DNA from: an uncultured Candidatus Saccharibacteria bacterium
GTDB lineage: Bacteria; Patescibacteriota; Saccharimonadia; Saccharimonadales; Saccharimonadaceae
Direction of reading: 5' to 3'
DNA length: 46,218 bases
NCBI GenBank assembly: GCA_947302355.1
Contig: CAMYUU010000007.1
Span: 1 to 46,218 of the forward strand
The first letter of the stretch is position 1. Each line of letters starts with the position of its first letter. Below the pieces are notes generated by a model, which had not been told where the DNA came from, ran no database searches, and saw only the letters and a program-made list of their open reading frames with translations. The translations under genes were made by a program, and so were the position numbers. This document shows positions 1-46,218 of the stretch, piece after piece.

Positions 1-295
1 TAGTGTATCCTATAGTATATATAGAAAAGCCATTACTATCATTACAATAAGCTTTAAGTGTGGTAGTACCTATATCTGCAGTATATGTACCATTAGTAAT
101 TTCTGCAGTATGAGAGTTCATACCAGTGCCGGTCATAGTACAGGAGACTGGAACTGTGATATTTATCTCATCTACTATGGAATCGTCAGCAGAGACAGTA
201 CTAGAATTAAGTATGATTCCGGAAAGAAGTGTAAAGCTAATTAAGACCACAAAAATATATAATGAAAAGTTAGCTTTACTGTATGACTTTAGCAT
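1..295 (-). CDS. Secreted surface protein, N-terminal part (cut by window start)
   Basis: The first 98 codons of a larger gene that continues past the window start. An N-terminal hydrophobic signal segment ends in a VSA-DDS type signal-peptidase site near residue 35. The mature start (IVDEINITVPVSC) and the block after it are almost identical to the protein at 23211-25043, so this is a paralog of that InlB-repeat/FISUMP-type protein. The ATG at 295 is the first possible start because an in-frame TAG lies two codons upstream. There is no Shine-Dalgarno; the -10 box ends 6 bases before the ATG, so the mRNA is probably leaderless. An export role is inferred from the signal peptide. Whether it carries the same C-terminal domains cannot be seen here. 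Confidence 0.8.
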   Translation of the reverse strand, partial: MLKSYSKANFSLYIFVVLISFTLLSGIILNSSTVSADDSIVDEINITVPVSCTMTGTGMNSHTAEITNGTYTADIGTTTLKAYCNDSNGFSIYTIGYT

Positions 296-8481: not shown

Positions 8482-9360
8482 TTATTTACCCTCCGCTTTT
8501 ATAGTTTTCTTAGTTTCCATAATAGTCGAAACAGTCGTGTAATATGCCGCAGCCTGAGCTGATAGCTCCAAATTGTCATCATCTTTCCATTCGATGGTGG
8601 CACGCTGAACATCTATCTGACGAATCGAATGCTCCAAATTCTTTAGAACATTCATCGTCACCTTAGAATCTGCTTTAACCGCAACATTGACCGTAATAGT
8701 ATTCAAATTACTACCGAGAGTAGAAGCGGAGGAATCCTGGGTTGTACGCAAACTTTCCGGCTCTTGGTCAGCAATACGATATAGCATATCAATGCTAGCC
8801 ATCAAAGCCTCTTCATTCTTAAAGGCTGGCAAAGCATCCGGAATCACACGCAAGGCCGAACAACTCTTAATCAGCTGACTAGCTTCCTTTAGCTCCTCTG
8901 AGCCCTTACTCTGCGCTTCCCGATAGTTTTCCATCAATTGACTATATGTGTAATTCTTCGTGGTTTCAGGATCGATACAATTAGTAGAATCATCTTCCTT
9001 GGGTACAGAATTCAACGCCTCATTAGATGCAGTTTTCTCCAATATATTAGAACGTAACGTATTCGGTATCTGCGATAATTCTATATTATCAGGATTACAT
9101 TTTTCTAATTCCCCTAGGGAATAAATTTCACCTTCAGGTTTTTTGCAAACCCCAACTGTTTTTATAACGTTCGAATAACTAACGATGGATTTTTCTTGTT
9201 CCTCTATTACCTTGATATTAAACTCAATCTGTTTCACGAAATGCATAATCAGCGAAATCGCGACGCCCAAAAACAACGAAGCTACTAGTACCGCAAGAAG
9301 CATATATTGCTGAGCTTCACTAATCTTTGCTCTTTTACCAATTGCAATTTCTTTAGCCAT
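8482..9360 (-). CDS. pilO: PilO-like inner-membrane alignment protein
   Basis: A 292-residue bitopic protein: short basic cytoplasmic start, one transmembrane helix (about residues 20-45), a coiled-coil-prone stretch (about 46-70) and an extracytoplasmic domain with four cysteines. This layout and the position after pilN match PilO, the partner of PilN in the alignment complex, although sequence similarity to classical PilO is not obvious. The start overlaps pilN by 8 bases and its ribosome site (GGAGG) lies inside the codons for the Asn/Gly-rich end of PilN. Longer than classical PilO (about 200 residues). Confidence 0.7.
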   Translation of the reverse strand: MAKEIAIGKRAKISEAQQYMLLAVLVASLFLGVAISLIMHFVKQIEFNIKVIEEQEKSIVSYSNVIKTVGVCKKPEGEIYSLGELEKCNPDNIELSQIPNTLRSNILEKTASNEALNSVPKEDDSTNCIDPETTKNYTYSQLMENYREAQSKGSEELKEASQLIKSCSALRVIPDALPAFKNEEALMASIDMLYRIADQEPESLRTTQDSSASTLGSNLNTITVNVAVKADSKVTMNVLKNLEHSIRQIDVQRATIEWKDDDNLELSAQAAAYYTTVSTIMETKKTIKAEGK

Positions 9361-20115: not shown

Positions 20116-22998
20116 CTATCCCAAATATTTTCTCAAATATTCCCCCGTCGGCGTCTTCGCAGATTTCGCCAAATCCTCCGGCGTACCCTCAGCGCACACT
20201 AAGCCTCCCTTCAACCCCCCTTCTGGCCCCATATCAATAATCCAATCTGCCGACTTAATTACATGTAGATTATGCTCAATAATAATCATCGAATTCCCCC
20301 CATCCACTAGCCGATTTAGAATCGCGAGTAGCCTCTTCACATCATCCGAATGCAGCCCAGTCGTCGGCTCGTCTAGGATATAAAGCGTCCGCCCAGTAGA
20401 TCTCCTAGCTAATTCCGTCGCCAGTTTAATCCTCTGCGCCTCACCGCCCGAAAATGTCGTCGCTGGCTGCCCTAATTTAATATATCCAAGGCCAACCTCT
20501 TGAATCGTCCGTAATTTGCTAGCAATCGAAGGAATATTACCAAAAAACTCCACCGCCTCATCAATCGTCATATCTAGCACCTCAGAGATATCCTTACCTT
20601 TATACTTTATCTCCAATGCTTCCGCATTATATCGTTTTCCATGACATTTCGGACAAGTCACATACACATCCGGAAGAAAATGCATCTCAATCTTATTTAC
20701 TCCATCGCCTTGACAATGCTCACATCTTCCGCCCTTTACATTGAATGAAAACCTTCCAGCCTTATATCCTCTTACTTCTGCTTCTGGTTGCGCAGCAAAT
20801 AATTCCCTAATCGCCGTAAACACGCCAGTATAAGTCGCCGGATTAGAACGCGGCGTTCGCCCAATTGGCGACTGATCAATTACAATCGCCTTATTAATAT
20901 TTTCTATACCATCAATTCTCTCATGCGTCCCCGATACCGTCTGTGCCCGATGCAGTCTCGCCAGTAATTCATTAGCCAGAATCGAATTCACCAAGGTTGA
21001 CTTCCCCGACCCACTCACTCCAGATACCACCGTCATCACTCCTAGCGGAAAATGCACATCAATATTCTTCAAATTATTCTCGCGCGCCCCCACTACTACC
21101 AATTCAGCACCTTTTTTAGCTTTTCGTCTCTTTTTTGGCGTCGGAATTTTCATCTCGCCAGACAAATACTTACCAGTAATTGAATCTGGATTCTTCATAA
21201 TTTCTTCTGGCGTACCAGCCGCCACTAAGCGCCCACCTTGTTTACCCGCTCCCGGCCCAATATCTATAATATAATCAGATTCCAACATTGTATCTTCGTC
21301 ATGCTCCACCACTAGCACCGTATTCTTGAGATCCCGAAGATGCTTCAGGGTCGCAATTAATTTATTATTATCTCTTTGATGTAAGCCAATTGATGGTTCG
21401 TCCAGTACATAAAGTACACCAGTTAATCCCGAACCAATCTGCGTAGCCAGCCTAATCCTCTGCGCTTCACCACCAGATAGCGTATTAGCCGCTCGCCCTA
21501 ATTCCAAATACCCCAGCCCCACATCCTGCATAAATTTCACCCGCTCGCGAATCTCCTTCAAAATTGGCGCCGCTATCATATTTTCAGCTTCCGTAAATCC
21601 CAAATCCTGGTTTAATACTTCTAACGTCGCATCCACATCCAGATTACACATATCTACAATATTTAAATCATGAATCGTTACCGCTAGTACCGCAGGCTTT
21701 AATCTAGCTCCATGACATTCCTGACATTCACGCACCCGCATAAATCGTTCGATATCTTTCTTCATAAATTCCGAAATTTTCGGGTCGTTATATCTGCGTT
21801 CCAGAGTCGGAATCACTCCCTCGTATGTCGTCTGATATACAGTACCGTCCGCAAATCGTCCCGACCCACTAATCTTCATCTCGTATTTTTCGTCACCCGT
21901 GCCATACATAATTAGCTGTCTTTGCTCTTCTGTCAGCTCTCCAATTGGTACATGTACCGAAAATCCATGTTTTTGTGCTACCTGCATCAGCCTTTTCATC
22001 CACCAAGAGTCCTGTTGTACCCTATTAAATGGCCGAATTCCACCTTCTGCTATCGTTAAATTTTTATTAAACACTAGTCCCGGATCAATCTCCATTCTCG
22101 ACCCAAGCCCCGTACATACCGGGCAAGCCCCCTCCGGTGCATTAAAACTAAAGAGTCTAGGAGTTAATTCTGGAATTAACTCATCAGGATGATCAGGGCA
22201 AGCATAACGCTGTGAATAAGTTAATACTTCGGTATTCTCTGCCGAAATTCTAGATTCCCCCACCGCAGTAGAATTATCTACTACGCGAAGTAGCTGAATA
22301 ATTCCCTGTCCCATCTCAAGAGCCTGCTCGATTGAACTAGTAATCCGGCTCCTTAACTCCGGATTTAGCACGAACCTATCTACCACTATTTCTATATCAT
22401 GACGTTCATTTTTATTTAATTCCGGAAATTCGTCTAAAGCATAGATAATTCCATCTACCCTAACTCTTGAATAACCCTTAGCTATATATTGCTCTGGAAT
22501 ATGCAAAAACTCACCTTTTTTCGCCGATACAATTGGAGCAAGTAGCATCAGTTTAGCTCCAAGCGGCAGTTTCATTACCTCATTTACGATATCCTCCACA
22601 CTACGCCGACTCACCTCTTTATGACAAATCGGACAATGTGGTACTCCTACGCGCGCGAATAATAATCTCAAATAATCATACACTTCCGTCACCGTCGCCA
22701 CTGTAGAACGCGGGTTTCTCGACGTCGACTTCTGGTCAATCGATATTGCCGGGCTGAGCCCCGTAATAGAATCCACCTCAGGCTTATCCATCACCCCAAG
22801 AAACATCCTAGCGTATGAACTTAAAGATTCCACATACCGCCTCTGGCCCTCGGCATAAATGGTATCAAAAGCAAGAGACGACTTCCCCGACCCAGACAAC
22901 CCAGTAATAATTACCAGCTTATCCCGTGGAATATCTACGTTGAGATCGTCTAGATTATTCTGCCTTGCTCCTCTTACTTTTATAAAATCATCATCCAT
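20116..22998 (-). CDS. uvrA: Excinuclease ABC subunit A
   Basis: Damage-sensing ATPase of nucleotide excision repair, 960 residues. Two ABC modules: Walker A GLSGSGKS (33-40) and GVSGSGKS in the second half, each with an LSGGEAQRI or FSGGEAQRI signature and a DEP Walker B. The first zinc site reads CPDH...CPVC instead of CxxC...CxxC; the second is CEHCQGDG...CPKC. UvrB-binding and insertion domains are of normal length. AAAAGGA ribosome site and its own promoter (TAGACA-17-TATAAT). No uvrB or uvrC nearby. Confidence 0.97.
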
Positions 22999-23033: not shown

Positions 23034-23062
23034 ATTATACACCGAAAATCAATCTTTGTCTA
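23034..23062 (-). promoter_or_regulatory. uvrA promoter
   Basis: Minus strand TAGACA (23057-23062), 17-base spacer, TATAAT (23034-23039). Leader of about 30 bases with AAAAGGA. No LexA-like box was recognised. Confidence 0.65.
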
Positions 23063-23073
23063 TGACCCGACCC

Positions 23074-23100
23074 AGTAATCCGCCTTAATGGCGGATTACT
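23074..23100. repeat. Perfect hairpin downstream of the surface-protein gene
   Basis: AGTAATCCGCC, 5-base loop, GGCGGATTACT: a perfect 11-bp stem. A short T-run (TTTT) follows only on the plus strand, which has no gene to terminate. Lies between uvrA's promoter and a larger inverted repeat. Confidence 0.7.
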
Positions 23101-23103
23101 TTT

Positions 23104-23181
23104 CCTGGTTAAAGTGATCCCAGAATTACTCATGAGCCCTTAAAGGGCTCTTGAAGTAATTCTGTAACCACTTTAATCAGG
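23104..23181. repeat. Large three-tier inverted repeat (78 bases)
   Basis: Outer arms CCTGGTTAAAGTG / CACTTTAATCAGG (12 of 13 pair), middle arms AGAATTACT / AGTAATTCT (perfect 9), inner arms GAGCCCTT / AAGGGCTC (perfect 8) around one base, with short unpaired bulges between tiers. It lies 30 bases after the stop of the surface-protein gene. It could fold as RNA in the 3' end of that mRNA or extrude as a cruciform; it may be a MITE-like or recombination element. Confidence 0.75.
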
Positions 23182-23210
23182 AGTGTCTTTCTGGAATAAG
23201 AAGGCGCACC

Positions 23211-25043
23211 TTAAGTGTCGACCGTACACCTAATACTACTGCCGTAGAACTTATTGTAGCCATTCTTACCTGGAGTCACGCCAGACATAGTCAGGACCAG
23301 GTAGTACGAATTGTAATCACTATACACAGTAGACGACCAATAGTAGCCGTAGAAGCCTATATTATTCACCGACGACGTATCGAAGAGGCCGGTATAGAGG
23401 AAGTTATTCGGGAAAGCTCTAATCTTTTTACTAGCAGTAGAATTGGTTACATCAGAATCATTATTAATCTTGTAGTTTAGATTATAGAATCCCCCAGCTG
23501 TAGCACCATTACCAGAGCTTTTGCCATATGGTAATTTCCAACCAGTTGGGCATAGAGATGTAGTGTCATAATCCCCACTCGCGTAGTGTGTGGTATCCGC
23601 AACTGCAGCATGCCAAGTGTAATAGTTACCATAGCTATACATGTAAGCATTAGTAGTGTTATTGAAAGCACTGTTAGATGTGGGGTTCTGCGGACGATTA
23701 GCAGAAGTAGATTGGTTATTCCAGTTATTATAGCGTGGGAATCTATAAGCTTGGTAATTTCCAGAAATAGTTTTAACAGTAGAACCATCTATACTATATA
23801 GACTATTGGCTGTAGTGGAGTATGTAAAATTATCAGATTCTGTCGTAGCGAGACCAGCAAAGCTAGAATTATAGCCTTGAGCGAGAACGCCAGTAGAGTT
23901 GTCGCTATTGGTACTTTCTAGTCTCAAGTTTTCAATCATCCAACACTTACCATCAGCTAGTTTAGCGATAGCATATGTATTGTTGTCTCTGCTATCAGTA
24001 AGAGCAGAGACACTAGATAAGTTAGCAGTGCCATCAGTAGGAGCAGTAGTTAGGCTTCCTGACCCAGTGCCACAAAGTTGTGCTACCTTAGTAGAATCTT
24101 GTAATGATCCAGCTGATGGTACCCATACAGCGTAAAGACTTAAACCATTAGCAGTAGTACCAGTAGGTACTGTAATGGTTTCTTGTGGACCATAGAAATG
24201 AGCGTTTTGGTTAGTAGCATAATCAAAGGCATCAGACCAACCAGCAAAGCCATAGCCAGATCTAGAGAAGTTAGAAGCAAGAAGTTCTTTTGTTTGTCCA
24301 TCCGAGGCAGACTGACACCCCATAGTACCTACTACATTAGAGCCATTCGGGAAGTAGTTAATACATCTTGCTGTAGCTGGTTGTGGACTTAGCGGCGCAT
24401 CAGCATCCTGTGGGTGCACTAATGTATATTTAACTTTACCTTCATATGTATCAGCAGGTTGGGTTCTGGATATATAAGCTGCATATGTAGTAGTAAGAGT
24501 TGAGCCTTCTGCATTGGTTCCTATATCAGTACCAGAATCTCTATGTGCTACTTTAGTATAAGTAGATGGTACTATACTATAGCTTCCATAACCATTGTCT
24601 AGTGTAATAGGATATGTAGGTGTTGGAGATGATACTGCTGTTAGTTTCATAGCCCAGTTAGATGTGTCAGGATTACCTGCAGATGTAGCTGTTCCTGTAA
24701 CTATAGTATTACTAGTACTTTGTCCTATTAGTGTAGTAGTACCATATGTATCATTAGTGTATCCTATAGTATATATAGAAAAACCATTACTATCATTACA
24801 ATAAGCTTTAAGTGTGGTAGTACCTATATCTGCAGTATATGTACCATTAGTAATTTCTGCAGTATGAGAGTTCATACCAGTGCCGGTCATAGAACAAGAT
24901 TCTGGCACGTTGATGGTCACTTGGTCTACTATGGAGTCGTCAGCAGAGACATAAGAAGAACTTAAAATCATTCCAGTCAGTACGGTTAGGCTAACTAGAC
25001 TAATAGTCATAATCATTGGTTTATTTATGCTTACTTTACTCAT
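23211..25043 (-). CDS. Secreted InlB-repeat / FISUMP-domain surface protein
   Basis: A 610-residue exported protein. Signal peptide about 1-34 (cleavage near VSA-DDS); a Thr/Ser/Asn-rich beta domain about 36-215; a Listeria-Bacteroides (InlB B-repeat type) domain about 230-312 with the pattern FSRSGYGFAGW...LYAVW; then a C-terminal domain of about 290 residues with DSRDNNTYAIAKLADGKCWMIENL and a YWSST...SSIRC end, matching the Fibrobacter major paralogous (FISUMP) domain. No LPXTG, SLH or C-terminal membrane anchor is seen. A surface or host-contact role is inferred. Paralog of 1-295, sharing a 138-base block. Has a weak AAGG ribosome site. Confidence 0.85.
   Translation of the reverse strand: MSKVSINKPMIMTISLVSLTVLTGMILSSSYVSADDSIVDQVTINVPESCSMTGTGMNSHTAEITNGTYTADIGTTTLKAYCNDSNGFSIYTIGYTNDTYGTTTLIGQSTSNTIVTGTATSAGNPDTSNWAMKLTAVSSPTPTYPITLDNGYGSYSIVPSTYTKVAHRDSGTDIGTNAEGSTLTTTYAAYISRTQPADTYEGKVKYTLVHPQDADAPLSPQPATARCINYFPNGSNVVGTMGCQSASDGQTKELLASNFSRSGYGFAGWSDAFDYATNQNAHFYGPQETITVPTGTTANGLSLYAVWVPSAGSLQDSTKVAQLCGTGSGSLTTAPTDGTANLSSVSALTDSRDNNTYAIAKLADGKCWMIENLRLESTNSDNSTGVLAQGYNSSFAGLATTESDNFTYSTTANSLYSIDGSTVKTISGNYQAYRFPRYNNWNNQSTSANRPQNPTSNSAFNNTTNAYMYSYGNYYTWHAAVADTTHYASGDYDTTSLCPTGWKLPYGKSSGNGATAGGFYNLNYKINNDSDVTNSTASKKIRAFPNNFLYTGLFDTSSVNNIGFYGYYWSSTVYSDYNSYYLVLTMSGVTPGKNGYNKFYGSSIRCTVDT
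24755..24892 (-). repeat. Near-identical 138-base block shared with the paralog at 1-138
   Basis: 137 of 138 bases match positions 1-138 in the same orientation (single difference at 29 versus 24783) and the match probably extends past the window start. Flanking codons for the signal peptide diverge strongly, so the identity has a sharp edge at 24892/138. Confidence 0.95.
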
Positions 25044-34652: not shown

Positions 34653-34733
34653 CACGTTTAACTCTTTATATGGCACCTAAATTCACAACATCTTACAATT
34701 ATTATTTTTTTATAAACCAATCCAATAGAAGTG

Positions 34734-34742
34734 TGATACAAT
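34734..34742 (+). promoter_or_regulatory. Promoter of the first sulfatase-fold gene
   Basis: GTGTGATACAAT: extended -10 TGA-TACAAT (TACAAT 34737-34742), 9 bases before the ATG at 34752. Nearly the same sequence recurs before the paralog at 36484. Confidence 0.55.
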
Positions 34743-34751
34743 GAAATATAC

Positions 34752-36404
34752 ATGAAGGGAGTTATCAGAATAAAAGAGCTATTCTACGCATGCATACTAT
34801 CATGCGCCATCAGCTTTATGGTTTTTCTATACGAACCAATCACGCTTTATGCAAACAACGTAAACGATTTTTGGTTTGATTTCTACGTACTCATATCTCC
34901 ATCACTATTATTCTTTGCACTATCCACCGTAGCACTCTTTATCATTTTTACTATAGCTTTTTTCTTATCAAAAAAGACACGTTTAAAAAACATTTATTAT
35001 TGGACTCTTCTCTTGGCAACATTCTGTTTTCTCTGCGCATATATTCATAGTAATTTTCTCGCCGAATTTTTACCTTCACTAGACGGCACCAACCCAGACT
35101 GGAGCAGCAAAACTGCAAACATAGTCTCAATAGCAATCTGTATTATAATCGCCATCACATTGATAATCTTAGTGAAAAAAACAGGTTACCAAAAATCCCT
35201 CAAGTACACATCTATCCTCAATCTAGCCATAGTCTTCATCTTATTCTTATCTCTAGCTTCTACCGCTATCACCACCGATGTCTTTAAGCCAAAAGAGTTT
35301 ATCGCTACTTCTACCACCAAAAATATCAATCTCGTTTCCAACAATAATAATTTCGTTATATTAATGCTTGATGCTATCGATTCGGTGCAATTCAATAAAG
35401 TTGTTTCGGCTAATAAATCCTACCAACAAACGCTTAAAGATTTTTCTTATTATCCTGATACCGTATCTGCGTATTCTTTCACTAGAGACTCAATCCCATT
35501 CATCTTTTCGAGTACTTGGAACGAAAACCAAACATCATTCGCTGAATACTCCACCAACGCCTATAATAATTCTGAATTTTTCAAAAAATTATCAGAAAAA
35601 CAATACAATAAGAATTTTTACGAATACCAACTAACTTGGAACGACCAAAAGGCCACAGAATTCAGTAATATAGAAAGCCCATCAAGCGGAGCCATCAAGA
35701 AAAAGGCACTGCTAAAGCAAGAGATTAAATATATCCTTTACAAAACACTGCCATTCCCGCTCAAGCGTCTTTCCAAAATTGAAACCTTAGATTTCTCAGT
35801 GACGCAACCAGCCAATGACATCTTCCAATGGGATAATCTAGTCTTTTATAATGACTATCTCAAAAGACCAGTAGAAAAAACCGACCAAAACTACTTTGGA
35901 TTCGTTCATATCGAAGGCGGCCATACTCCATTTGATATTACCGAAAATTTCGAATCTATCCCAGATAGTAACGGCACCTACGGTCAAAAACTTGAAGCAA
36001 GTATGAAAATCATCGAAGCATATCTAAACAGATTAAAAGAAAACAACGCATACGATAACTCTACTATTATCATTATGGCCGATCACGGATTCTGGTACGA
36101 AACAAACAGTCGCGCCAACCCAATTCTTTACATAAAAGGAGCTAATGAAAAACACGACAAGATGACAGTATCAAACAAACAAATATCCTTCGAAGATCTT
36201 AGTGCTGCATTCATAGAATTACTTGATAATAAAAAGAGCGATGAGATATTCAAAGATATTCCAACTTCAGGCCGCACCAGACGACATATCTATAATGAAT
36301 TCGGATCAGAAGAAGTTCTAGTCGAATACAATCAAACAGGCAATGCCTGGGAAGGCAGTAAATTACAACCAACCGGAAATGTATATAGACTACCGTCCTC
36401 CTGA
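34752..36404 (+). CDS. Membrane sulfatase / phosphoglycerol-transferase-like protein, copy 1
   Basis: A 550-residue protein with about five N-terminal transmembrane helices (to about residue 180) and an extracytoplasmic alkaline-phosphatase-superfamily domain (about 195-530). Visible motifs: NFVILMLDAIDSVQF (first metal site), YYPDTVSAYSFTRDSIPFIFS with the likely Thr nucleophile, HIEGGHTPF, and IIMADHGFW (second metal site). This is the layout of LtaS, MdoB and EptA, which transfer phosphoglycerol or phosphoethanolamine outside the membrane. Sequence is far from any of them, so donor and acceptor are unknown. Tandem paralog of the next gene. Confidence 0.8.
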   Translation: MKGVIRIKELFYACILSCAISFMVFLYEPITLYANNVNDFWFDFYVLISPSLLFFALSTVALFIIFTIAFFLSKKTRLKNIYYWTLLLATFCFLCAYIHSNFLAEFLPSLDGTNPDWSSKTANIVSIAICIIIAITLIILVKKTGYQKSLKYTSILNLAIVFILFLSLASTAITTDVFKPKEFIATSTTKNINLVSNNNNFVILMLDAIDSVQFNKVVSANKSYQQTLKDFSYYPDTVSAYSFTRDSIPFIFSSTWNENQTSFAEYSTNAYNNSEFFKKLSEKQYNKNFYEYQLTWNDQKATEFSNIESPSSGAIKKKALLKQEIKYILYKTLPFPLKRLSKIETLDFSVTQPANDIFQWDNLVFYNDYLKRPVEKTDQNYFGFVHIEGGHTPFDITENFESIPDSNGTYGQKLEASMKIIEAYLNRLKENNAYDNSTIIIMADHGFWYETNSRANPILYIKGANEKHDKMTVSNKQISFEDLSAAFIELLDNKKSDEIFKDIPTSGRTRRHIYNEFGSEEVLVEYNQTGNAWEGSKLQPTGNVYRLPSS

Positions 36405-36465
36405 TTGCATTACTCCAGTAGTAATCAAATTAATCGTATTATCGACCACAAATCTATCAAAAATG

Positions 36466-36474
36466 TGATACAAT
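36466..36474 (+). promoter_or_regulatory. Promoter of the second sulfatase-fold gene and its operon
   Basis: TGTGATACAAT: extended -10 TGA-TACAAT (TACAAT 36469-36474), 9 bases before the ATG at 36484. Duplicate of the signal before copy 1. Probably drives 36484-42061. Confidence 0.55.
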
Positions 36475-36483
36475 TTAACTAAT

Positions 36484-38124
36484 ATGAAGGGAGTTATAAG
36501 AATAAAAGAGCTTTTTTGCGCGTGTATATTATCATGCGCTATTAGCTTTATGGTTTTTCTATATGAACCAATCATATTATACGCAAACAATTTAAATGAT
36601 TTCTGGTTTGATTTTTACACGATTTTCCCTTCCCTCCTTCAATTCTTTTTTATCAGCTTCCTTTTTATATCTATTATTAATTTGTCCGTTTTTGGATTGT
36701 CTAAAATAATTAAGAAACCAAGCTTATTTAATATTTATTATATTGCACTTATTGTTGTTTTTCTTATAGCTTACATTCATGGTAATTTCTTTTCAGGCTC
36801 TCTACCCACTCTAACTGGTGATCCGATAATCTGGAGTGATTATACCGTCGAATATATCATTTCTATAATCATCTGTCTCGTTATTATCGTCACTACTATT
36901 ATTCTTGCAATCAAGTTTAAGCCAGTTCGTATTATTAAATACACTACATATCTTACGGTGGCTATCTTCGCTATGTTGGTAATTTCATTCTTAAGCACTA
37001 TTTTTACAACTGATGCCCTTAAAGAAAAATCAATTATAACCTACGCCACCAATGACAATATTAATACTTATTCCAATGATCGTAATTTCCTCATCCTCCT
37101 TCTCGACGCCGTCGATTCAGAACGTTTTTACAAAGCTGTTAATGAAATGCCGCTATACCAAGATACCTTTGCAGATTTTACCTATTATCCAGATACCGTC
37201 GGCGCCTACAATCTAACCCGTGATTCTATTCCCTTTATTTTCTCTGGTAAGTGGGATCGTAACGAAACAGATTTCATTACCTATTCCACCGACGCATTCG
37301 ATAATTCTCCTATTTTCGACAAATTACAATCCGATGGATATAATATGAATCTCTACGACGAAGACTTCACATGGCAAAGCCGCAAAGCACTAAATTTTAC
37401 CAATATTGATAGTCAAGCCAAGAATATTAATCAAACTGCCTTCCTAAAACAAGAAATCAAATATGTTCTCTTTAAATACTTACCGTACCCTCTTAAAAGT
37501 TTTTCAAAGCCCGACTCTATAGATTTCGCCAACACCCAATCCTCCGACGAAAAAGAGTCTTTCGCATGGGAAGATCTCACATATTATAATAACATGTTGG
37601 AAAATCCAATCGAACTTACCAATCAAAAAGTCTTTCAATACATTCATTTAGAAGGCGCTCACGTCCCTTATAATTTAGATGAGGATTTTAACTCCATCGA
37701 TCCAGAATCCGGCACATACGAACAAAAATGCATTGTCACTCTAAAAATCATCAATACCTACATTAATCGATTAAAAGAAGCAAATGTATATGATAATTCT
37801 TCCATTATCATTATGGCAGACCACGGAGTTAATCATACCGCCAACCCAAACCCCATCCTCTACATCAAAGGAGTTAACGAACATCACGCTTATCAGGCCT
37901 CAGACAAAGCCATCTGGTATCCAGATTTGCTAGAAGCCTATAACGAGCTATTAAATAATAAATCATCTTCCGAGGTGTTTTCCAACGTTTCAGACGAGCA
38001 CCGCGATCGCATTATCATCCAAATACCATTCGGGCATGAAGAACATATGATAGAATGGGTTCAAACCGGCAAAGCTTGGGATCAAAAAACATTAAGTAAA
38101 ACAGGAAAGGAATTTGATTTATGA
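36484..38124 (+). CDS. Membrane sulfatase / phosphoglycerol-transferase-like protein, copy 2
   Basis: A 546-residue paralog of the previous gene with the same architecture: about five transmembrane helices, then the sulfatase-fold domain with FLILLLDAVDSERF, YYPDTVGAYNLTRDSIPFIFSG, HLEGAHVPY and IIMADHGVNH. The first 45 residues are nearly the same in both copies even at the DNA level, while the periplasm-side domains have diverged clearly, so the copies probably act on different substrates or steps. The stop overlaps the start of the YidC fusion (ATGA), with an AGGAAAGG site, so the two are coupled. Confidence 0.8.
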   Translation: MKGVIRIKELFCACILSCAISFMVFLYEPIILYANNLNDFWFDFYTIFPSLLQFFFISFLFISIINLSVFGLSKIIKKPSLFNIYYIALIVVFLIAYIHGNFFSGSLPTLTGDPIIWSDYTVEYIISIIICLVIIVTTIILAIKFKPVRIIKYTTYLTVAIFAMLVISFLSTIFTTDALKEKSIITYATNDNINTYSNDRNFLILLLDAVDSERFYKAVNEMPLYQDTFADFTYYPDTVGAYNLTRDSIPFIFSGKWDRNETDFITYSTDAFDNSPIFDKLQSDGYNMNLYDEDFTWQSRKALNFTNIDSQAKNINQTAFLKQEIKYVLFKYLPYPLKSFSKPDSIDFANTQSSDEKESFAWEDLTYYNNMLENPIELTNQKVFQYIHLEGAHVPYNLDEDFNSIDPESGTYEQKCIVTLKIINTYINRLKEANVYDNSSIIIMADHGVNHTANPNPILYIKGVNEHHAYQASDKAIWYPDLLEAYNELLNNKSSSEVFSNVSDEHRDRIIIQIPFGHEEHMIEWVQTGKAWDQKTLSKTGKEFDL

Positions 38125-45805: not shown

Positions 45806-46218
45806 CAATCTGTCGTCTTGTAATTATTACACCGTCTGCAAATTCACCTTCTCTGGTGTAATACTTTGTTATTCCTTTAGTGTAAGCCCAGTTTATAGCA
45901 TTCGCCATTTCAATATTGCTTGGTAAATCTTCCAAATTGCTATCATAAGCCAACGGTTCATCTTCGTATCTCCATAAGAATATCGCAACTTCTCTTCTAG
46001 TTATCTGCGTATATGGTGCATATTCACCAGGCGAACTATAGTATTTTGTAATACCGTTGTTGTAAGCCCAAATAATAGCCTTTGTTCCCAACTCATCATT
46101 AACTGATAAATCATCAAATATTTCACTAGCATTTGTAATATTAACATCTGGTGAACCAGCAAGTCTCCATAAGAATATCGCAACTTCTCTTCTAGTTATC
46201 TGCGTATATGGTGCATAT
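45771..46218 (-). CDS. C-terminal SLH repeats of a surface protein (start beyond window)
   Basis: The last 149 codons of a gene whose start lies past the window end; the frame stays open to 46218. The sequence consists of S-layer-homology type repeats of about 65 residues: AIxWAYxxGITKYY..GE(Y/F)A....ITRRE(Q)VAIFLWR, two full copies and part of a third. SLH domains bind secondary cell-wall polymers, so this protein should be held on the cell surface, possibly by the glycan made from the genes next to it. The stop is a TAG at 45771, inside the convergent nitroreductase gene. Confidence 0.8.
   Translation of the reverse strand, partial: YAPYTQITRREVAIFLWRLAGSPDVNITNASEIFDDLSVNDELGTKAIIWAYNNGITKYYSSPGEYAPYTQITRREVAIFLWRYEDEPLAYDSNLEDLPSNIEMANAINWAYTKGITKYYTREGEFADGVIITRRQIAIFLYRMSLLR
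45969..46023 (-). repeat. 55-base exact direct repeat within the SLH coding region
   Basis: Identical to 46164-46218, which reaches the window edge. The period is 195 bases, exactly 65 codons, so the repeat keeps the reading frame. It covers the ITRREVAIFLWR motif. Confidence 0.95.

Follow-up and report, generated by a model that had tools for sequence, protein, structure and literature searches.

A long three-tier hairpin behind a Saccharibacteria FISUMP gene as a probable DGR target-site hairpin

The gap between a surface-protein gene and uvrA in an uncultured Candidatus Saccharibacteria bacterium holds a large bulged palindrome and a second, perfect hairpin, raising the question of what such a structure is for. 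We analysed the window (the whole 46,218-nucleotide stretch, contig CAMYUU010000007.1), together with its own genome and those of relatives. With a probability of roughly 0.8, the large hairpin is an unusually long target-site hairpin of a diversity-generating retroelement (DGR), on an orphan or remote target. In a DGR, a reverse transcriptase (RT) makes cDNA from the RNA of a template repeat (TR), introducing errors at adenines, and this cDNA takes the place of a variable repeat (VR), immediately 3' of which a structure marks the target site.

The hairpins and their neighbourhood

The features under discussion are as follows.

20116–22998, minus strand: uvrA, a neighbour outside the system (NF001503, 1447 bits)
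23034–23062, minus strand: uvrA promoter-like site (TAGACA-17-TATAAT), just outside the shared block
23074–23100, minus strand: small hairpin, 11 perfect pairs and a 5-nt loop, near the end of the block common to contig C49 of the relative G062 (G062:C49)
23103–23182, minus strand: large three-tier hairpin, 34 pairs in 80 nt, candidate DGR target-site hairpin, homologous and covarying in relatives
23183–23199, minus strand: box TTATTCCAGAAAGACAC, lying between the FISUMP gene and the large hairpin and overlapping the putative VR at the VR's end, candidate IMH site
23191–23403, minus strand: putative VR, at the FISUMP gene's 3' end (213-column alignment to the G062:C49 template repeat, A-biased mismatches)
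23211–25043, minus strand: FISUMP (Fib_succ_major) surface-protein gene, 610 aa, proposed target (TIGR02145 E 5.8e-14, above cut-off; the PF09603 match is below cut-off)

The 141-nt region holding both hairpins has a gene-strand folding energy of -68.0 kcal/mol, lower than that of any of 200 dinucleotide shuffles (mean -31.1, sd 3.7; 0/200 as low; z -9.9), and in a fold scan of the contig (2,714 overlapping 85-nt segments, step 17) the four lowest segments all overlap the hairpin element. The innermost loop of the large hairpin is TTA. A T-run on the transcribed strand after the stem, the criterion for an intrinsic terminator, is absent from both hairpins, whose tails on the minus (gene) strand are AAAAGTAATCC and GGGTCGGG; on the plus strand, TTTTCC comes after the small hairpin. 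The uvrA promoter-like site, read from 23062 to 23034, begins ∼10 nt past the small hairpin, and similar sites stand upstream of uvrA in relatives among the matches listed. The original prediction described a three-tier palindrome and a perfect 11-bp hairpin in the gap up to the uvrA promoter, with no T-run to end the minus-strand mRNA and a shape beyond that of a simple terminator, and in each of these respects it is upheld. The relevant feature probably extends further, into the gene as far as the putative VR at 23191–23403.

In G062:C49 the counterpart of the small hairpin is followed by TGGTTTTG, so that the small hairpin may be a decayed transcription terminator. Several other genes of the own genome have ordinary hairpins with T-runs at their ends. 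No Rho gene was found in the own genome by a TIGR00767 profile search, which gave matches in 12 of 14 control genomes (8 above cut-off). A search of the element against Rfam returned below-gathering-score matches only, mostly microRNA precursors, which we regard as a hairpin artefact.

Elsewhere in the window, two adjoining sulfatase-like genes (34716–36618) have starts that are 81% identical and form a tandem duplication, and an exact 55-nt direct repeat (45969–46023 and 46164–46218) reaches the contig end, perhaps as an assembly-end effect. The gene end at 8930 of locus L086 also carries a three-tier hairpin, whose stem leads into TTATTT; among the gene ends it ranks second in the strength of its gene-strand fold.

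Copies and covariation among relatives

In its own genome the hairpin element is single copy, both by DNA similarity (query of 141–156 nt) and by covariance model. DNA similarity in 59 relatives gave short matches alone, nothing convincing among the seven inspected; those in G025 (E 0.001) and G010 are attributed to chance and lie inside one alanyl-tRNA synthetase-like open frame. Outer arms of identical type with differing inner arms stand behind other FISUMP genes of G062, and a right-arm pattern (≤3 mismatches) occurs at four places in the 174 genus genomes, each time after a FISUMP stop, while the reversed control pattern occurs at none. R2, a covariance model of six seed copies run against the 174 genomes (own genome included), recovered nine loci at E≤1.2e-4, namely the seeds and three new ones (G192:C31, G143:C15 and G063:C1). 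All nine stand 3' of a FISUMP gene, at a distance of up to ∼160 nt and on the strand of that gene, and where a locus matches on both strands the gene strand gets the higher score. The original prediction's advice to seek copies beside FISUMP genes was borne out, both by these loci and by the four arm-pattern matches. Weak copies may be missed in the genus searches, because Infernal was run with stricter filters and part of the candidates were scored.

The window copy was the only one in 453 kb picked irrespective of FISUMP ends. Seventy-eight named FISUMP loci, all from Candidatus Saccharibacteria and many from ruminant guts, yielded five known copies and two weak gene-end copies, L182 (E 1.2e-4) and L203 (E 0.0012). 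The left arm of the copy at G068:C19 is ruined. Set aside were a weak R2 match at L210 (E 0.11), away from FISUMP ends, and weak R1 matches in G034, G079 and G130 (E 0.002–0.007) with no FISUMP gene adjoining. Nor is such a hairpin a feature of all FISUMP gene ends: a strand-mean fold of ≤ -40 kcal/mol is reached at 10 of 109 of them (the window's among these) and at 1 of 231 ends of other genes (Fisher p 7e-5), where the 109 span many genomes and the 231 come from the own genome, exclude ORFs below 100 aa, ends at stretch borders and the window gene, and retain at least one FISUMP end (L089:13050).

Across the six aligned copies pairing holds in 90.3% of cells, and both sides have changed in 18 of 33 pairs, levels that no shuffle reached (0/500 each); 6 of 500 shuffles reached the observed number of pair types. 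When the structure is slid by 1–3 columns, pairing is 36–55%, a comparison that favours the original register since the structure was derived from the same sequences. The inner arms vary between copies while their pairing is kept. Most of the odd cells, read on the gene strand, are G.U, and in the outer helix G.U is found in 12 columns and A.C in three (two-sided p 0.035, for copies that are related to one another). Strong FISUMP hairpins (mean ≤ -35) are more stable on the gene strand than on its complement in 13 of 15 cases, in segments picked without regard to strand. This preference fits RNA as well as DNA and is suggestive at most, because the own genome's other strong gene ends are biased likewise (8/11).

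The hairpin is not shared by itself. The block common to the window and G062:C49 consists of the FISUMP gene end plus the hairpin, with the BLASTN match ending at 23072, the small hairpin's end; the match to G062:C14 ends at 23077 and that to G068 at 23080, the latter interrupted between 23115 and 23200. Past the block the genes are unrelated: uvrA in the window, and an NYN-domain-like gene, a tRNA region and a ruvB-like gene in relatives (names, except uvrA, assigned by eye). Matches to the seed copies L184, L170 and L173 end inside the gene, so that their hairpins are tied to the window through the structure model alone. The N-terminal part of the window gene is closest to a different relative, L160 (88% over 23916–24997), whose match stops at 23199, short of the hairpin; the FISUMP gene is therefore a mosaic, its end and the hairpin travelling together.

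Two further observations concern repeats. At L151 (∼1380–1450), TTGCAATGAACCCC is found in both orientations between the FISUMP stop and the hairpin, as if the duplication had arisen by template switching. Separately, 286 kb of the own genome contain an ∼80-bp GC-rich structured repeat with unrelated flanks, in seven near-full copies of 79–100% identity (L084:5333–5417, L085:10087–10162, L095:14772–14853, L092:14143–14217, L088:9771–9855, L089:6755–6834 and L087:12897–12973) and two partial ones, none inside the window; it is an unexplained MITE-, REP- or RNA-like family.

Template and variable repeats

Because FISUMP C-termini resemble DGR variable repeats, an RT search (PF00078) was undertaken in 12 genomes that had been picked because they carry FISUMP genes or hairpins. 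Five were positive (G062, G068, G078, G152 and G192), with 10 RT loci, and no match was obtained in the own genome (G000), G010, G143, G063, G106, G060 or G136. Genus-wide, 97 of 174 genomes match PF00078 at E≤1e-5; an RT is present in 4 of 7 genomes with the hairpin and in 93 of 167 others (p=1). The DGR case depends on the RT loci themselves, not on a genome-level association.

The G062 RT matches both PF00078 and phrog_1423 (E 1.9e-73) and carries IGNLTSQ, a motif of DGR RTs. Directly ahead of it is an ORF of 337–339 aa with a Cro/C1-type HTH and no Avd family match, possibly a fused accessory protein; ORFs of this length precede the DGR RT at L248:3727–4740 and L249:5502–6521, the N-terminal HTH coming from a scan of L248 only. 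A brute-force scan located a TR at nine of the 10 RT loci, the tenth (L257) having no FISUMP C-terminus to serve as query; self-BLAST missed the template repeats. With A as the free base the scan returned 260 windows, compared with none for C, none for G and one for T. Across the nine TR/VR pairs a neutral local alignment covers 2,018 positions, 590 of them TR adenines, and contains 204 mismatches, of which 189 fall on those adenines. This supersedes an adenine-tolerant extension with 174 of 177 mismatches at A, in which A changes pass freely and by which VR homology extends 18–48 nt beyond the stop. In seven of the nine cassettes TR and RT are on opposite strands, and in seven of nine so are the TR and its VR (loci L248–L254, L258 and L260, in G062, G078, G192, G152 and G068); an 'inverted' DGR type is given as rare in PMC3521204.

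The end of the VR, and not that of the TR, carries the strong structure. On the gene strand the stretch after the VR folds at -35.1 to -71.1 kcal/mol, against -6.7 to -37.6 after the TR (TR-side stretch of 103 nt for L253, 120 for the others), and the VR side folds lower in all nine pairs on both strands. The largest RT-linked hairpin has 33–38 pairs at six of the nine loci and 15–16 at three (L253, L254 and L258). It starts 0–20 nt from the VR end in eight of nine cases and 60 nt away at L254, where smaller hairpins precede it. In G062:C49 the homology can be traced by eye up to the hairpin base (TR TTCCAGCAAGACACTG, VR TTCCAGAAAGACACCC). G062:C23 and G062:C49 are the only R2 loci (2/9) with an RT on the examined stretch; one more RT-linked hairpin, at L251, is the weak copy L182, the majority of the rest are dissimilar in sequence, and on the gene strand none of the nine innermost loops reads GRNA. 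Relatives thus have VRs paired with TRs, changes directed at adenines, and hairpins on the VR side. For remote FISUMP genes (L255, L256, L259 and L261), no TR was found in the examined sequence of their genomes, and the sole match to the L255 query was the FISUMP gene of L256.

Compared with the G062:C49 TR, the window gene differs at 25 of 69 A and 19 of 144 non-A positions (one-sided p=0.00015), while the equivalent test for C, G and T gives p≥0.65; A stands on the TR side of 25 mismatches and on the window side of three. The other G062 TR gives 18 of 45 A against 11 of 70 other bases (p 0.004), and with the remaining seven TRs the bias is weak or absent, or the alignment too brief, so that a bias measurable solely against relatives' TRs is clear only with G062's two. 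It suggests that the window gene was formerly rewritten by a DGR. The window and G062:C49 hairpins are alike (80 nt and 34 pairs each), and the VR-to-hairpin gap is 8 nt in the window, equal to that of G062:C49 if the VR ends as aligned. The 17 bases of the box are identical in G062:C49, and TATTCC[TA]GAAA or close variants recur ahead of the hairpin in other copies; the box is a candidate site for the initiation of mutagenic homing (IMH).

A-bias at p<0.05 is seen in 10 of 19 own-genome FISUMP C-termini, the window's included (one-sided, best of nine TRs, p uncorrected). Nine of these ten ends were folded (L022 left out), and only the window's reaches -35 kcal/mol or lower, with L009 at -32; VR-like divergence therefore exists without a strong hairpin. 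The own genome (96.5% complete, 17 contigs) gave no RT by PF00078 (0 candidates), and no TR was found in the window, in 12 stretches or in the FISUMP loci, all 13 TR-like matches in own sequence falling in other FISUMP genes. Several contigs end inside FISUMP genes (window 1–265; ends of C2, C8, C9, C13, C14 and C17), which implies that the assembly breaks at this repeat family. Given these ends and 96.5% completeness, a DGR cassette may sit in an assembly gap of the own genome. The predicted C-terminal model of the target protein has a pLDDT of 36.7, and structure comparison of the whole-protein model gave mainly N-terminal, pilin-like matches of middling Z; no C-type lectin, the fold expected of the VR domain in a DGR target protein, is among the structural matches listed, a weak test since the N-terminal domain fills the list.

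In the proposed mechanism the FISUMP gene would be the target, with its last ∼190 coding bases and 20 bases past the stop serving as VR, and the large hairpin would mark this VR for replacement by adenine-mutagenized cDNA. The window copy would be an orphan or remote target, with gene end, landing box and hairpins kept as one block without an RT. The candidate phyla radiation is rich in DGRs, and scans near the RT overlook remote targets (both from PMC8144416). A further proposal, tentative and on balance doubtful, is that gene end, landing box and ∼34-pair hairpin form a portable unit that is rewritten in trans, is orphaned where the machine is missing, and acts through a gene-strand hairpin rather than a cruciform. 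Such a block would move between Saccharibacteria genomes and be rewritten in trans by any matching DGR present; its hairpin would have lengthened to this size and would form in single-stranded DNA or RNA, and the excess of G.U over A.C would record this.

Competing explanations and known systems

The strongest competitor is a hairpin in the mRNA 3' UTR, serving protection, processing or slow termination, with the DGR link mere neighbourhood. The greater stability of the gene strand (13/15) and the G.U to A.C ratio (12 to 3, p 0.035) fit it, the L252 hairpin leads into TTTTG, RNA hairpins may carry more work where no Rho gene is found, and hairpin presence is unlinked to RT presence by genome. 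However, the window hairpin has no T-run, the strand bias is unspecific (8 of 11 other own gene ends are alike), and a strong fold stands at the end of nine of nine VRs and not of their TRs, which is more than a pure mRNA element would need. As a complete account we consider it improbable, although the mRNA and DGR readings can both hold, and the long hairpins possibly also act in mRNA.

Insertion of a mobile repeat, such as a MITE or REP element, into the gap that separates uvrA from the FISUMP gene is far less probable still. The palindrome has the size of a MITE and the region upstream of uvrA varies among relatives, but there is one own-genome copy where a dispersed repeat should have several, the inner arms diverge between copies with pairing kept, and the block common to G062:C49 takes in the FISUMP gene end. 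We give least credence of all to an integron attC-type single-strand recombination site with the FISUMP gene as cassette: a bulged hairpin at a gene's 3' end, shared with that end as one block, would suit it, yet no array of such hairpins exists in the own genome, and the arm ends stand in reverse order relative to the attC consensus. The original prediction likened the palindrome to recombination sites and MITEs; its view of a structure for DNA recombination is retained under the DGR reading, whereas the single own-genome copy disagrees with a MITE, and a DGR target-site hairpin is a specific kind of element that it had not named. It had also held that a single-copy stem conserved only at mRNA 3' ends would speak against it; the element is indeed single copy, but in RT-bearing relatives the hairpins lie where TR homology ends.

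As a DGR target-site hairpin, the puzzling palindrome in very small bacteria would be accounted for. Together with the landing box, the hairpin could reveal remote or orphan DGR targets from sequence alone, and the long covarying hairpins offer natural variants for studying the role of DGR hairpins and the question of strand. These bacteria may rely on such surface proteins for contact with the cells of their hosts.

Literature searches on DGRs, directed at hairpins, at Saccharibacteria and the CPR, and at Fibrobacter succinogenes, found no description of these hairpins in the accessible texts, supplements aside, and searches for FISUMP, or for Saccharibacteria with FISUMP, found no publications. 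Among human-microbiome DGRs the Fib_succ_major target family is shared (nine proteins in a table), although the hosts differ and the word 'hairpin' is absent from the main text (PMC4159848). I-shaped terminators, which lack a U-tail, likewise place a stem without a T-run in the 3' UTR (PMC8919778), but the window hairpin greatly exceeds them in length, is nested and is linked to VR ends. Nanoarchaeal DGRs share uncultivated, small-genome hosts and a hairpin tied to the VR; they differ in their GRA loops and in a hairpin within the target gene, the window's being 3' of the stop (PMC4372165).

The closest parallel is the Bordetella phage BPP-1, whose efficient retrohoming requires a hairpin/cruciform immediately downstream of the VR; there, stem pairing and loop sequence matter and stem sequence is free to vary (PMC3240598, also for the phage DGRs below). 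As in BPP-1, the window has an inverted repeat directly 3' of the VR, outside TR/VR homology and near the target stop codon, and pairing is kept while stem sequence varies; the VR-hairpin distance is 4–34 bp in phage DGRs and 8 in the window, given the putative VR end. Phage DGRs have GC-rich stems of 7–10 bp and 4-nt GRNA loops, a description not stated for all DGRs, in contrast to the 34 pairs, three tiers, 80 nt, AT-rich outer arms and TTA loop seen here. By analogy, the long hairpins may work as in BPP-1. On the best reading, the large hairpin is a DGR target-site hairpin of far greater length than that of BPP-1, in a multi-tier form without the published loop consensus.
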